Below, piece by piece: positions 1,749-64,000 of a DNA stretch of 64,000 nucleotides. The stretch comes from an uncultured Paracoccaceae bacterium (GTDB lineage: Bacteria; Pseudomonadota; Alphaproteobacteria; Rhodobacterales; Rhodobacteraceae). Every line of letters begins with the position of its first letter. Position 1 is the stretch's first letter. The position numbers were made by a program, and so were the translations under genes. Where the stretch lies: contig CALLAF010000038.1 of assembly GCA_938002605.1 (NCBI GenBank), forward strand, positions 1 to 64,000, in the 5' to 3' direction. The notes under the pieces are model-generated. The model searched no databases and had not been told where the DNA came from. It was given only the letters and a program-made list of their open reading frames with translations.

Positions 1749-2131
1749 CCCATCAGTTCCCCGTCCGCGTCTATTACGAAGATACCGATCTTGCCGGGAT
1801 CGTCTACTATGCCAATTACCTAAAATTCATTGAGCGTGCCCGATCGGAATGGGTCCGCGAGATGGGTATTGATCAGGTCGCGATGAAGGCCGCAGGTTTG
1901 GTTTTTGCTGTGCGCCGGGTCGAGGCTGACTACCTATCGCCGGCCCGGTTTGACGATAAGTTGATTGTTGAAACCTCTGTCAGCAATAGCACCGGCGTGC
2001 GTCTGAGCGTGGCGCAAGCCATCAAGCGCGATGAAACACTTATTTTTCGTGCGATAGTGACGATTATTTGCATGGATGAAACGGGGGCTGTGGGCCGACT
2101 TCCGGCGCAGATCCGCCAATCCACGTGTTAG
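1745..2131 (+). CDS. ybgC: Tol-Pal associated acyl-CoA thioesterase YbgC
   Basis: YbgC is a hot-dog-fold thioesterase that hydrolyses acyl-CoA and is encoded with the Tol-Pal envelope system in most proteobacteria. The 128-residue protein carries the 4HBT signature near its N terminus: EDTDLAG at residues 12-18, with Asp15 as the likely catalytic acid, then VYYANYLKFIERAR at 20-33. The start overlaps the upstream stop as ATGA. It is followed by tolQ after a 113-base gap that may hold a promoter. Substrate in this organism is not evident. Confidence 0.93.
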   Translation: MTHQFPVRVYYEDTDLAGIVYYANYLKFIERARSEWVREMGIDQVAMKAAGLVFAVRRVEADYLSPARFDDKLIVETSVSNSTGVRLSVAQAIKRDETLIFRAIVTIICMDETGAVGRLPAQIRQSTC

Positions 2132-2186
2132 TTTGTGTGGGTTTCAGCCTTGTAATACGGGTTTGATTGGCTTTTCGATTTCGAAT

Positions 2187-2200
2187 GCGTTATGTAACGC
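2187..2200. promoter_or_regulatory. Small palindrome in the tolQ upstream region
   Basis: GCGTTA and TAACGC form perfect 6-bp arms around TG, 45 bases before the tolQ start in the only sizeable gap between ybgC and tolQ. It could be an operator or a short leader hairpin. No matching regulator is identifiable. Confidence 0.25.
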
Positions 2201-2244
2201 CTTAATCAGAGCCCAAAACCGGGCCTACAGGCAGAGCAGGCACA

Positions 2245-2919
2245 ATGGAAGCAGCAACCGACTTCACGATGTGGGCGCTATTCGCGCGCGCAACAATTAC
2301 CGTAAAACTTGTCATGATCTTACTTATGGCCGCATCCGTTTGGTGCTGGGCCGTGATCGTGGACAAAATCGTGCAATACCGAAATGCCCGGACAGAGGCA
2401 GATATATTTGATCAACAGTTTTGGTCTGGCGAGCCGCTGGATGCGTTGTTTGACCAAATCGGAGCGGACCCGCAGGGCGCCAGCCAAAAGATATTTGCGG
2501 CAGGTATGTTGGAGTGGCGCAGATCGCACCGCCAAGATGGTGGCCTGATCGCGGGTGCTACCGCGCGCATTGACCGATCTATGGACGTCGCCATCGCCAA
2601 AGAGGCCGCGCGTCTGCAAAAGGGATTGCCTGTTTTGGCCACCGTCGGATCGACGGCACCGTTTGTCGGCCTGTTCGGGACCGTTTGGGGTATCATGAAC
2701 GCGTTTATTGAAATCGCTGAAGCCCAAAATACCAACCTTGCTGTTGTCGCCCCGGGGATCGCCGAAGCACTTTTGGCGACAGGTTTGGGCCTTTTGGCCG
2801 CGATTCCTGCGGTGATATTCTATAACAAACTGTCTGCAGATAGTGATCGTATCATCGCAGGCTACGAAGCATTTGCGGACGAATTCGCGACCATCCTTAG
2901 TCGCCAGCTGGATAGCTAA
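2245..2919 (+). CDS. tolQ: Tol-Pal system proton channel subunit TolQ
   Basis: TolQ forms with TolR the inner-membrane proton channel that energises TolA and helps constrict the outer membrane at division. The 224-residue protein shows the MotA/TolQ/ExbB pattern. A first transmembrane helix lies at about residues 15-35, and a long cytoplasmic loop follows. Two close helices come after that, containing LPVLATVGSTAPFVGLFGTVWGIM and the GIAEALLATGLGLLAAIPAV segment. Length is normal for the family. tolR follows after two bases and tolA after tolR, so the three are one operon. Confidence 0.96.
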   Translation: MEAATDFTMWALFARATITVKLVMILLMAASVWCWAVIVDKIVQYRNARTEADIFDQQFWSGEPLDALFDQIGADPQGASQKIFAAGMLEWRRSHRQDGGLIAGATARIDRSMDVAIAKEAARLQKGLPVLATVGSTAPFVGLFGTVWGIMNAFIEIAEAQNTNLAVVAPGIAEALLATGLGLLAAIPAVIFYNKLSADSDRIIAGYEAFADEFATILSRQLDS

Positions 2920-14719: not shown

Positions 14720-15208
14720 TTAACGGGTTATCGCAACAACTAGTAGATAAAACAAAAGCGTTCCGCTTAGCGCGAGCCCTTTTGGAAAACGGTCGTTGTT
14801 CCAGCTAAGCCAGTCAGGCGCAATTTTACGCAGCGGGCTATGCTTTGCCAAGCGATGTGTGACTAAGGCGGCCAATAGGCAGGATGCGTAGATCAACATA
14901 AACATGCGCAGATCGGCGACAGCAACCATGGGGGCTGCCGCAGCCATAAATTTTACATCGCCACCGCCAATGACCCCAGACATCCAAAATAGGATTCCCA
15001 CTGCAAGCACCACAGCAAAATGTGTCCAGTGCCACAGGTAGGTGACAAAAGGCAGGGCAAAGATCCCAAGAACCGCAAAGCTAAGCAACAGCGCGCCCGA
15101 CGCAAGATTGGGAATCTTCATCACCCGCATGTCATTCCATGCCACGAAAACTGCGATTGGGATAACCGCAGGCAAGAACCAGAACGCTGCGTATGCCGTT
15201 AGTCCCAT
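14720..15208 (-). CDS. cpaA: Type IV prepilin peptidase CpaA/TadV
   Basis: CpaA is the membrane aspartyl protease that removes leader peptides from Flp prepilins. The 162-residue protein is highly hydrophobic with about five or six transmembrane helices. It contains both expected catalytic aspartates: Asp26 in WNDMR and Asp84 in the GGGDVKF motif of the A24 family. It lacks the methyltransferase domain of larger PilD enzymes, as is normal for Tad systems. It is the last gene of the minus-strand unit that begins with cpaE and follows the TPR lipoprotein gene after 2 bases. Confidence 0.92.
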   Translation of the reverse strand: MGLTAYAAFWFLPAVIPIAVFVAWNDMRVMKIPNLASGALLLSFAVLGIFALPFVTYLWHWTHFAVVLAVGILFWMSGVIGGGDVKFMAAAAPMVAVADLRMFMLIYASCLLAALVTHRLAKHSPLRKIAPDWLSWNNDRFPKGLALSGTLLFYLLVVAITR

Positions 15209-61498: not shown

Positions 61499-61572
61499 GG
61501 CGAGTTGGTAGAGTGGTTATGCAGCGGATTGCAAATCCGTGTACACCGGTTCGATTCCGGTACTCGCCTCCA
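61499..61572 (+). tRNA. tRNA-Cys (anticodon GCA)
   Basis: This is a 74-base cloverleaf. The acceptor arm GGCGAGT pairs with ACTCGCC and is followed by the discriminator U and an encoded CCA. The anticodon stem CGGAT/ATCCG encloses TTGCAAA, with GCA reading cysteine codons. The T arm CCGG-TTCGATT-CCGG is standard. A tyrosine integrase gene lies 62 bases downstream and faces the tRNA 3' end, so this gene is very likely the attachment site of the element that follows; the 3' half would be the core duplicated at the far end. Confidence 0.95.
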
Positions 61573-61618: not shown

Positions 61619-61639
61619 GCGTTTACAGGGGCGTTTACA
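61619..61639. repeat. Tandem GCGTTTACA repeats beside the integration site
   Basis: The 9-mer GCGTTTACA occurs at 61619-61627 and 61631-61639, a 12-base period, between the tRNA-Cys 3' end and the integrase, overlapping the integrase stop. Short direct repeats near the core are typical arm-type binding sites for tyrosine integrases, which is the likely role here. Confidence 0.5.
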
Positions 61640-62711
61640 TTTTTGTGTCTTGAGACAGTGATTTCGCTCGATTGAGCTTGCGCAGAACCGCATCGCTTTC
61701 GTCCGGGCTAACCTGCGCATAATGCTCGATTACCTGCGCCGCGTAGCGAACCGACCACCCCATCAGAACTGCGATTTGGCGCAAAGACAGATCGGCATTC
61801 AGCAATCTTGTCGCCGCTGTCCCGCGCGTATCGGACAAAGTCTTCTCGCGCCCATCGATCCACGGTGGGATCTCCGCTTCGCGCCGCCACTTGGTGATCT
61901 GGTTCGATGCCCAACGGGCCGTCAAAGGCCTGCCAAGCTCTGACACCAGCAGCACATCTTGGCCCTCCGGCGTCTCTGCGATCAGTTTCTCAAGGGCTGA
62001 AGTGGCCGGGATATATGCGATCTGGCCGCGCTTACTGGTCCTGAAACGAAGGCGCTTGCCGTGCGGCGTGTCTTCGAATTGGTCCATTTTGACCTGAACC
62101 AGATCAGCTGCCCGCAAACCGGTTTCGCATCCTGCGGTAAGGATCCTCTGCACCCATTTCGGCGCGTGCTTATTGAACTGCGCTATGTCGCCACTCGTCC
62201 AAATGATCTCAGTCCGGTTCGATTGGTAGAGCTTCTTGAGCTTGTGACAGTGGTGCTCTTTCAGCTTCCCCTCCTCCACCGCCCAATTCAGAACGCGTGT
62301 CGCATGGGTACCCGCCATGTCGTGCTGCTTGGGGGAATGAAGCCACTTCTTGCGCCAATTGTTAACCTCGCCCCGCGAGGCGCGCTCTTCGAACATCGCG
62401 ACAGGATCGGCACCGAACTCCTCGCGAAACAGCTCCAGCCACTTGCGGATATCCGCCTTTGAACGCTCAGCTTTAGGCAGGGACGCACTGGACAGAAAAT
62501 CGTCGACTAAGTGAGTCGTCAGGTATTCGTCCGGGCTCACGGGCGAACCGCACTGCGAAAACGCATGGAAGAATTCGGGTTCCTTTGGGTTTGGGTCCGT
62601 CCCTTCCCAAAATTTGGGGCCACCCCGCCAAGCATAGAAATGGTAGCGAACACCGGACACGACCTTGCGCCGGACACGGTGGACGCCCTTGGGGAAGTTA
62701 CTTCTGGGCAC
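61635..62711 (-). CDS. Tyrosine-type site-specific integrase
   Basis: This recombinase probably integrates the element at tRNA-Cys. The preferred start is the GTG at 62711, with GGAG about 8 bases upstream. It gives 358 residues beginning MPRSNFPKGVHRVRRK, a common opening for this family; the longer frame to 62915 runs over the AlpA gene. An N-terminal SAM-like domain precedes the catalytic domain, with Arg in CETGLRAADL, Lys in RTSKRGQ, and the nucleophile Tyr in IEHYAQVS. The HxxR box reads SDTR, so the histidine appears replaced, and GW stands where GH is common. Confidence 0.92.
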   Translation of the reverse strand: MPRSNFPKGVHRVRRKVVSGVRYHFYAWRGGPKFWEGTDPNPKEPEFFHAFSQCGSPVSPDEYLTTHLVDDFLSSASLPKAERSKADIRKWLELFREEFGADPVAMFEERASRGEVNNWRKKWLHSPKQHDMAGTHATRVLNWAVEEGKLKEHHCHKLKKLYQSNRTEIIWTSGDIAQFNKHAPKWVQRILTAGCETGLRAADLVQVKMDQFEDTPHGKRLRFRTSKRGQIAYIPATSALEKLIAETPEGQDVLLVSELGRPLTARWASNQITKWRREAEIPPWIDGREKTLSDTRGTAATRLLNADLSLRQIAVLMGWSVRYAAQVIEHYAQVSPDESDAVLRKLNRAKSLSQDTKM

Positions 62712-62955
62712 GACGCGCTCTCCGCTGTGCAACGAGGCTCGGTTGCGAAGCGGCCTCGCGTTCTGCCGCGCTGATACCCTGAACAGCATCCAATCGCGCG
62801 CGGATGAGTTTCGGATCATACCACCCGCGCCGACCGGGCACCGGAGCGATACCCGTCCTACGGCAGAAGTCATAGAAGGACGCGCTCGGCTCACTGTAGC
62901 CGAAGAGAAGCGCAAGCTCTGGGGTCGGAATCAGCTGAATATGGCTTGGGCTCAT
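62698..62955 (-). CDS. AlpA/excisionase-like small DNA-binding protein
   Basis: This is an 85-residue protein with a MerR/AlpA-like winged-helix pattern (LIPTPELALLFGYSEPSASFYDFCRRTG, then APVPGRRGWYDPKLIRARLD) and a basic Arg/Ala-rich tail. Such proteins act as excisionases or activators of integrase genes. It overlaps the integrase start by 14 bases and the upstream ribbon-helix-helix stop by four, so the three genes form one operon. The number of residues between helices fits a DNA-binding fold. Confidence 0.8.
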   Translation of the reverse strand: MSPSHIQLIPTPELALLFGYSEPSASFYDFCRRTGIAPVPGRRGWYDPKLIRARLDAVQGISAAEREAASQPSLVAQRRARRAQK

Positions 62956-63113
62956 TTTTCAGCCCTCTCACCCACGGCTTCTTGCCGCGACATGGCTGCC
63001 CGCAAACAAGACACCACCTGAGCGCCCTGTGAGCGTAAGTTCCGCACAGCCTCCTCTTCGAGCCAGGCTTTCACGTCCGCTGGAAGGTTAAGTTTGAACT
63101 GGGTTGTCTTCAT
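62952..63113 (-). CDS. Arc-type ribbon-helix-helix protein, 53 residues
   Basis: This short gene begins at an ATG with GAGGTG five bases upstream and overlaps the AlpA-like gene by ATGA. Its product, 53 residues, has the Arc/CopG pattern: strand TTQFKLNLP, helix ADVKAWLEEEAVRN, turn, and helix AQVVSCLRAAMSR. The QFKLxLP strand would contact DNA. It lies first in the excisionase-integrase operon and diverges from another Arc-type gene, so it probably binds the palindromes between them. The homologous QFK strand in both proteins is notable. Confidence 0.8.
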   Translation of the reverse strand: MKTTQFKLNLPADVKAWLEEEAVRNLRSQGAQVVSCLRAAMSRQEAVGERAEK

Positions 63114-63131
63114 ATTTACACCTCAACAAAA

Positions 63132-63171
63132 GGACATAAAATGTCCATATCATTGAGGACAAATATTGTCC
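63132..63171. promoter_or_regulatory. Twin 15-bp operators in the divergent control region
   Basis: GGACATAAAATGTCC at 63132-63146 and GGACAAATATTGTCC at 63157-63171 are perfect palindromes with shared GGACA and TGTCC arms, 25 bp centre to centre, about 2.4 helical turns. On the minus strand TTGTCC in the second site and TTATGT in the first are 17 bases apart, forming a plausible -35 and -10. On the plus strand TTTACA at 63115-63120 and TAAAAT at 63137-63142 are 16 apart. Bound repressor would cover both promoters. Confidence 0.75.
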
Positions 63172-63488
63172 ATCATGCAATCATGAAAGAAGAAGCCTTG
63201 GTCCAATTCAAACTCTTGCTTCCTGCCGCGCTGAAGAAGCGTCTGGAAACGCATGCCACACTGAACCGGCGCAGCCTGTCGCAGGAAATCGTCGTCGCTC
63301 TTGAGGAGAAGTACCCGGCTGCAGAACCGGATGCGACGTCGGATCCAGCCGCGCGGCTGCTGTTCTGGCTCGCCAAACGCATCCGTCGAAGAAACCCAAA
63401 GCCTGGGACGCCAAGGGACAAGCAAGCCGCCCTGTATGAGCGCATTGCGGGCGATATCGCGGAACGCATGAAAGACATCGGGGAATAG
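63141..63488 (+). CDS. Arc/Mnt-type ribbon-helix-helix regulator
   Basis: This is a DNA-binding protein diverging from the excisionase operon. Two starts are possible. The ATG at 63141 (115 residues) has AAAGGA six bases upstream but lies inside an operator. The ATG at 63183 (101 residues) gives a standard Arc-like N terminus but has no clear ribosome site. The Arc-like segment is VQFKLLLPAALKKRLETHA followed by NRRSLSQEIVVALEEKY, matching strand-helix-helix of Arc and Mnt. About 55 further residues, basic and helical, extend beyond it. It probably represses the element's own operons. Confidence 0.82.
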   Translation: MSISLRTNIVHHAIMKEEALVQFKLLLPAALKKRLETHATLNRRSLSQEIVVALEEKYPAAEPDATSDPAARLLFWLAKRIRRRNPKPGTPRDKQAALYERIAGDIAERMKDIGE

Positions 63489-63490
63489 CC

Positions 63491-64000
63491 CTAGTAGGCC
63501 ACCCACTCATATCCGTGGTTACCTTCGTGATCTTCCCATTCCACGCCAACTCCTCGTCGCCAATTCGATGATGAACAGCGCCGTGACGGCAGAACCCATT
63601 GCGGGGCGGCCGCTGGTGTCGTGCTTTGCCAGCCGAATTCGCCCTGCGTGCCATAGGTCCCGAGGCGCATGTTGTAACTCTCAGAACAATCATCGTCGCG
63701 ACCGCGTTCGCGATGGCTGTAGTGCCGAACATCCCAGACACGAATCGAGCGTACGAAATCGAATTCCAGACCACTGATGTCGATATCGGCACCACCTTCG
63801 ACTACCTGTGCCAGAATGACTTGTGCGAGCTGCTGACCTGATTGGTTGCTGGCCTCCCAGATTTTCGGGGCCGTGCTTTGCAAAGGCACACGCTCAGAAA
63901 CACCCATCGGACAACGCCAGATTTGCAACGGCGGCTCAATCGGCCAGGGCGTGATCCGACGGATAAACACGGCACGGGCATGGGCACATTCTGCTGACGC
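63491..64000 (-). CDS. Hypothetical protein of the mobile element, partial
   Basis: The frame is open to the window end, so the gene may begin beyond it; if complete, GTG at 63970 gives 159 residues. The protein is Trp-rich and polar. It contains FIRRITPWPIEPPLQIWRCP, a possible partner-binding segment IWEASNQSGQQLAQVILAQ, and a C terminus with EWEDHEGNHGYEWVAY. No family is recognised. It converges with the Arc-type regulator, three bases from its stop. Confidence 0.5.
   Translation of the reverse strand, partial: ASAECAHARAVFIRRITPWPIEPPLQIWRCPMGVSERVPLQSTAPKIWEASNQSGQQLAQVILAQVVEGGADIDISGLEFDFVRSIRVWDVRHYSHRERGRDDDCSESYNMRLGTYGTQGEFGWQSTTPAAAPQWVLPSRRCSSSNWRRGVGVEWEDHEGNHGYEWVAY

Follow-up and report, generated by a model that had tools for sequence, protein, structure and literature searches.

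The closest described counterpart of the locus analysed here is the immI region of phage P22 (BK000583), in which mnt lies on the minus strand and arc (53 aa) on the plus strand, followed by ant, and in which the annotated operators Oarc (14798-14818) and Omnt (14822-14844) have centres 25 bp apart. According to the available text of one study, Arc and Mnt both repress one operon, at different stages, and do not oppose each other (PMC7549136). Other described systems share single traits with our locus. Pf prophages of Pseudomonas aeruginosa carry an Arc/Mnt-domain gene near xis, and the likeness is therefore that of an Arc-family gene close to excision genes; the protein is single and larger (145-225 aa), and the accessible part of the source describes neither a paired gene nor twin operators (PMC7549136). 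TprA of the ICE PAPI-1 is an Arc-like ribbon-helix-helix (RHH) regulator that is itself ICE-encoded and controls ICE transfer genes; it binds the pil2 operon promoter, and the portion of the paper at hand does not describe an integrase operon with a divergent RHH pair (PMC8565334). AmrZ of P. aeruginosa, the solved structure closest to the profile of our protein RHH-A (1.6e-8), likewise consists of an RHH domain and a C-terminal domain, which in AmrZ is proposed to oligomerise; it regulates virulence genes, and no divergent RHH partner is described in the excerpted text (PMC3325190). As far as its accessible text goes, the open-licence PMC literature does not describe an integrase that is controlled by a divergent RHH pair.

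The window (the whole stretch of 64,000 nucleotides that we analysed) ends inside a mobile element of marine bacteria that is integrated at a tRNA-Cys gene and that we class as a putative ICE. The features at the locus are as follows.

61499..61572, plus strand: tRNA-Cys(GCA), called by ARAGORN; integration site and left edge of the element
61635..62711, minus strand: integrase of the tyrosine-recombinase type (Pfam PF00589, 1.2e-11; PHROG 1 integrase, 1.8e-20)
62698..62955, minus strand: xis-like small protein, 85 aa, called from its position, its size and its overlaps with adjacent genes
62952..63113, minus strand: RHH-B, Arc-like, 53 aa, strand QFKLNLP, heading the xis-int operon
63115..63142, plus strand: predicted RHH-A promoter, TTTACA-16-TAAAAT, from a consensus scan
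63132..63146, no strand: putative operator 1, GGACATAAAATGTCC, a GGACA-N5-TGTCC palindrome
63157..63171, no strand: putative operator 2, GGACAAATATTGTCC, a GGACA-N5-TGTCC palindrome
63183..63488, plus strand: RHH-A, Mnt-like, 101 aa, strand QFKLLLP with a C-terminal tail, identified by PDB profile matches
63491..64000 and on past the window (2092-2733 of locus L005), minus strand: conserved 213-aa protein, start of the shared ICE body

The integrase probably starts at the GTG at 62711. The xis-like gene overlaps the stop of RHH-B by 4 bp and also overlaps this inferred integrase start, and because the integrase, xis-like and RHH-B frames overlap by a few bases they look like one operon. The 85-aa protein has no match in Pfam or PHROG, and neither has the part of the 213-aa protein inside the window. 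For RHH-A the ATG at 63183 is preferred over a start at 63141, which falls within the first palindrome. The two RHH genes are transcribed divergently, and the 69-bp gap between them holds both palindromes, 25 bp apart centre to centre. A sequence-only reading of 63114..63488 had described exactly this, divergent RHH genes with near-identical strands and two palindromes at this spacing between them, and both observations hold, with RHH-B lying just to the left of that interval. The contig (L005) runs to 67130 and carries, to the right, the remainder of the 213-aa gene, a short XRE-like regulator and a VirB1-type transglycosylase (PF01464, 2e-15), followed by the start of a gene that, read by eye, we take to be VirB2-like. 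Given this transglycosylase and the type IV secretion system found in relatives, a prophage was dropped as the identity of the carrier. One relative, Thalassovita autumnalis CECT 5118 (L069), shows 98-100% identity to the window per 100-base step over the 3.2 kb compared.

With P22 immI the locus shares the divergent RHH genes, the Arc-like 53-aa gene heading the controlled operon, the larger Mnt-type protein on the opposite side and the spacing of the operator centres. It differs in several respects. The operon behind the Arc-type gene encodes an antirepressor in P22 and a xis-like protein and integrase here; the carrier is an ICE instead of a phage; RHH-A has 101 aa against the 82-83 aa of Mnt; and Oarc and Omnt differ in sequence, whereas our two operators share one half-site class, so any division of labour between RHH-A and RHH-B is guessed. 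In P22 the two promoters overlap each other; here the plus promoter overlaps operator 1 and the minus candidates are weak. The suggestion that the arrangement had no published description thus does not survive, since P22 immI has the same layout with a different controlled operon, carrier and operator class; what appears to be new is a P22-type RHH pair placed on the xis-int operon of an ICE. We consider it likely that a double-RHH switch of the P22 immI (Mnt/Arc) type controls the rhhB-xis-int operon of this tRNA-Cys ICE. This reading is built on anatomy, conservation, selection, the linkage of operator to RHH type, the likeness to P22 and relatives that accompany antirepressors, with binding and repression presumed by analogy.

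Both proteins had first been described as Arc-type. RHH-B of the window scores 13.4 bits against the Pfam Arc cut-off of 20.4 and RHH-A has no Pfam Arc match; relatives do match Arc at E<=0.1 (10 of 19 RHH-B members, 21 of 32 RHH-A members). Run on the window's own genome, the Pfam Arc model gave no match, and the pair therefore seems too diverged for that model. Profile comparison against the PDB placed RHH-A, after AmrZ, near Mnt (2.2e-4), two engineered Arc forms (0.0013 and 0.011) and Arc (0.024), and RHH-B near an engineered Arc (8.8e-4), Arc (0.014) and Mnt (0.04). Both profiles belong to the Arc/Mnt/AmrZ branch; of the two P22 proteins, RHH-A resembles Mnt more and RHH-B resembles Arc more, at E-values that are weak. 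Below the Pfam threshold, RHH-B matches a FitA-like RHH best (0.0014), which would fit the two genes being FitA/ParD-like antitoxin remnants of a toxin-antitoxin pair; no toxin gene was recognised beside either gene, however, and the pair is flanked by the xis-like gene and integrase and, on the opposite side in 26/30 loci of the window's type (described below), by the 213-aa gene, which makes this explanation very improbable. Both RHH proteins are under strong purifying selection: the median dN/dS is 0.044 for residues 1-45 of RHH-A (67 usable pairs) and 0.050 for RHH-B (52 usable pairs), out of a total of 91 pairs drawn from 14 chosen type-1 loci.

Exact GGACA-N5-TGTCC occurs at four sites in the 3.0 Mb genome, two of them here, and a reversed control pattern occurs once; any two of four random sites would fall within 100 bp of each other with a chance of ~4e-4. 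The other two exact sites (contigs C24 and C57) were considered as operators and set aside, as they fit chance, with ~3 expected per 3 Mb. Conservation is a stronger test of the palindromes than such statistics. Relatives were found through an RHH-A protein search and not through the operator sequence; among 394 genomes of the family, 27 gave a match, and the window's own is one of these. A scan of named genomes, with alignment, gave 72 loci, of which 30 have the window's RHH pair (type 1). Both palindromes lie at -51 and -26 from the RHH-A start in 28 of these 30. The remaining two, L075 and L122, have one exact site each: L075 has a single operator, as though the 25 bp between repeats had dropped out, and in L122 one of the two sites has a 4-bp centre. 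Loss of the palindromes in relatives had been named at the outset as the observation that would tell against a switch; the comparison instead found sites kept at every type-1 locus. Among 24 distinct upstream sequences (the 28 loci and the window, excluding L075 and L122), 20/20 half-site columns are invariant, while 6/10 centre columns, 10/10 spacer columns and most flanking columns vary. Since no further GGACA site was found in 554,736 bp around the 30 type-1 loci, the switch looks local.

Elsewhere, three GGACA-type sites occur together in exact form at L026 1425-1488 (G234) and in degenerate form at L058 9538-9610 (G088). Operator spacing is not constant among kin, a point against the P22-type reading: it is 35 bp in type 2 (described below) and, taken from best-scoring site pairs, ranges from 15 to 45 bp in the others. 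The motif ATTGCGTCAA (TTGACGCAAT on the minus strand) recurs between the operators of several kin pairs whose operators are otherwise unrelated, for example at L097 9936-9945; it is possibly a -35 element shared by kin and absent from the window.

The predicted RHH-A promoter scores 10/12, with 0.2 expected by shuffling, and its -10 (63137-63142) sits inside operator 1, as the sequence-only reading had proposed; occupancy of that operator should therefore also limit rhhA. The same reading had placed the -35 and -10 boxes of the minus promoter in the two palindromes. Here the consensus scan returned no minus-strand candidate above threshold, but relaxed rules gave three weak candidates at 8/12, one of which (15-bp spacer) does have its -35 in palindrome 2 and its -10 in palindrome 1.

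In the switch that we favour, RHH-A would bind the twin GGACA-N5-TGTCC operators and keep the divergent rhhB-xis-int promoter off, so that the element stays integrated. The operon would fire when RHH-A repression fails or right after entry into a new cell, and RHH-B, as its first product, would bind the same operators and damp its own operon, the outcome being a limited pulse of Xis and Int. RHH-A would then be the maintenance repressor and RHH-B the early autorepressor, after the roles of Mnt and Arc in P22 as given in the available text (PMC7549136). A lambda-type switch had originally been suggested; conservation and gene order give good support to its central element, a two-repressor switch ahead of an integrase, but P22 immI is the nearer model. 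Divergent genes, shared operators and a plus promoter that overlaps operator 1 would also suit bistability of the lambda kind, with each RHH protein maintaining one of two opposite stable states, yet we see no sign of an opposite ranking of sites, and the P22 proteins repress the same operon in the account accessible to us (PMC7549136); we regard bistability as quite unlikely. Somewhat less improbable, though still unlikely, is that the palindromes serve one RHH protein only, through autoregulation, and that the other is an accessory, for example of a recombination complex. RHH proteins are also found among the accessory factors of relaxosomes, one of which, TraY, is matched weakly by the RHH-B profile (0.39), and operators of one sequence class require no second repressor. 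This account sits poorly with the reading strand QFK that type-1 RHH-A and RHH-B share, with the strong purifying selection on both, and with pairs that accompany antirepressors, where no recombination complex is evident.

As background, a search with PF03869 gave 42 matches in the order, in 22 of 196 genomes searched; 34 of the 42 form 17 divergent pairs. Among related pairs, an antirepressor lies in the RHH-B direction at six loci (ORF6N in L134; Rha with ANT in L138, L171, L175, L184 and L058) and another integrase at six (L120, L131, L136, L137, L162 and L176), and the L173 pair has a relative of integrase 2, the type-2 integrase described below, in that direction. At L138, L058 and L136 other ORFs separate RHH-B from the antirepressor or integrase. 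We regard L058 as the most telling kin locus: its RHH-B has the strand QFKLNLP in common with the window and is followed, after one 130-aa ORF, by the Rha/ANT gene. Because kin pairs stand before antirepressors, the switch in the window is best read as an immI module with xis-int in the antirepressor's place. ORFs beside these genes at L058 look by eye like phage structural genes. Some kin do not follow the pattern: at L057, which has three GGACA sites, neither of the two ORFs tested behind RHH-B gave a recognisable gene. L030 was considered as a further pair and not counted, as its RHH-A-like gene faces a Bro-N gene directly and no RHH-B was found; this implies that the pair is not always needed, a point in favour of the one-protein account.

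Another 30 of the 72 loci form a second type, whose RHH-A tail is related and whose ICE body is in most cases the same; its RHH-A N-half has the strand KFIVRLP, its RHH-B has PMQLRLP, its operators are TGGC-N5-GCCA 35 bp apart, and its integrase is different. Cassette typing thus covers 60 of the 72 loci, with L119 (degenerate) and L129-L139 (other subtypes) excluded. GGACA sites lie just upstream of RHH-A in 30/30 type-1 and 0/30 type-2 loci, TGGC-N5-GCCA sites in 30/30 type-2 and 0/30 type-1 loci (at L117 and L126 the latter pattern matched at one site only), and operator type is strictly linked to RHH type at all 60. The surroundings of the type-2 loci contain six GGACA sites in 529,482 bp; all six are the same site, at a distance of ~9.2 kb from RHH-A, in bodies that are nearly identical. 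Integrase 1 (>=87% identity) is present in 26/30 type-1 and 0/30 type-2 loci; integrase 2 (>=90%) is present in 29/30 type-2 loci and as a whole gene in no type-1 locus. A homologue of the xis-like gene (>=74%) occurs in 26/30 type-1 loci, and the 213-aa gene is near RHH-A in 26/30 type-1 and 28/30 type-2 loci, adjoining it in most and lying a few kb off in some. Elements of both types are located at tRNA-Cys, which was called at 20/30 type-1 and 23/30 type-2 loci; at the others the contig ends or none was called.

What differs between the types is a cassette comprising the integrase, the xis-like gene, RHH-B, the operators and the N-half of RHH-A, with a breakpoint in the RHH-A gene after the RHH domain. 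DNA identity between the window and L094 is 35-54% in the compared cassette and 75-100% past the end of the RHH domain; between the window and L088 it is 84-100% through the cassette and falls to 35-51% starting 100 bases into the tail. Each of the four possible pairings of N-half with tail is found (the window, L088, L094 and L124/L126). On a tree of the 213-aa gene (58 rows; a quick method with SH-aLRT in place of bootstrap support) type switched at least eight times, six of these forced by well-supported branches, and the sister pairs L100/L118 and L073/L128 carry opposite cassettes at 100% SH-aLRT. In the type-1 locus L092 (4128-9534) the final 23 residues of integrase 2 recur at 100% identity, ~100 bases from a copy of the tRNA-Cys 3' end. 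The integrase-1 match of this locus extends to residue 311 of 363 and no further, and ~4.3 kb separates the two. The integrase-2 remnant is probably a scar of cassette replacement. L131 has a type-2-like switch ahead of another integrase, at tRNA-Arg, and L132 resembles it by a 25% integrase match, which suggests that the switch can also change partner. In L076 (9620-9931), RHH-B continues in frame into a stretch that by eye resembles an integrase end; this locus has no xis or integrase-1 match, its tRNA-Cys is ~0.5 kb off, and its operators and RHH-A are intact.

The cassette swapping seen here resembles the exchange of immunity regions among lambdoid phages. It is possible, though we advance this tentatively and consider it more doubtful than not, that the cassette is an exchangeable ICE immunity module: a resident RHH-A would silence the xis-int operon of an incoming element of the same type, and bodies would trade cassettes to escape, recombining between the shared tRNA-Cys and the RHH-A tail. 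Co-resident elements give mixed evidence for immunity groups. Types 1 and 2 occur together in two assemblies (L083 with L105, in a metagenome bin, and L073 with L125), and one assembly has a type-2 copy beside a degenerate copy (L117, L119); L130 and L131, in one genome, have near-identical switches (206/211 bases), each at its own tRNA gene, and this is at odds with strict exclusion. If cassettes are immunity groups, ICE heteroimmunity could be tested with two elements of the same body and different cassettes. If the switch operates as proposed, it would show that phages' double-repressor modules can be redeployed, with ICE excision in place of an antirepressor as the controlled function, and paired RHH proteins with matched but differing operators would offer a natural series for reading the RHH recognition code.

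The extent of the carrier was traced in relatives, where the 3' end of the tRNA-Cys (61548-61572) recurs as a direct repeat. In 9 of 16 genomes a further copy lies ~30-54 kb from the tRNA, for example at 49.7 kb in G257, 51.4 kb in G372 and 52.9 kb in G241, and some genomes have third copies. No copy was found in G013, and the window's assembly has a single one because its contig ends early. In 17 stretches beside further copies there was no RHH-A or RHH-B at E<=0.01; six of them contain another integrase. By Pfam, the G257 relative encodes proteins of the VirB4, VirB6, VirB10/TrbI, VirB11/T2SSE and VirD4/TraG types, and its element also encodes an ArdC-type anti-restriction protein. In the conjugation region of the same ICE (L160 3133-6868), a gene for an AAA ATPase (402 aa) adjoins one for a subtilase-family protein (845 aa), a pair that is possibly defence cargo.
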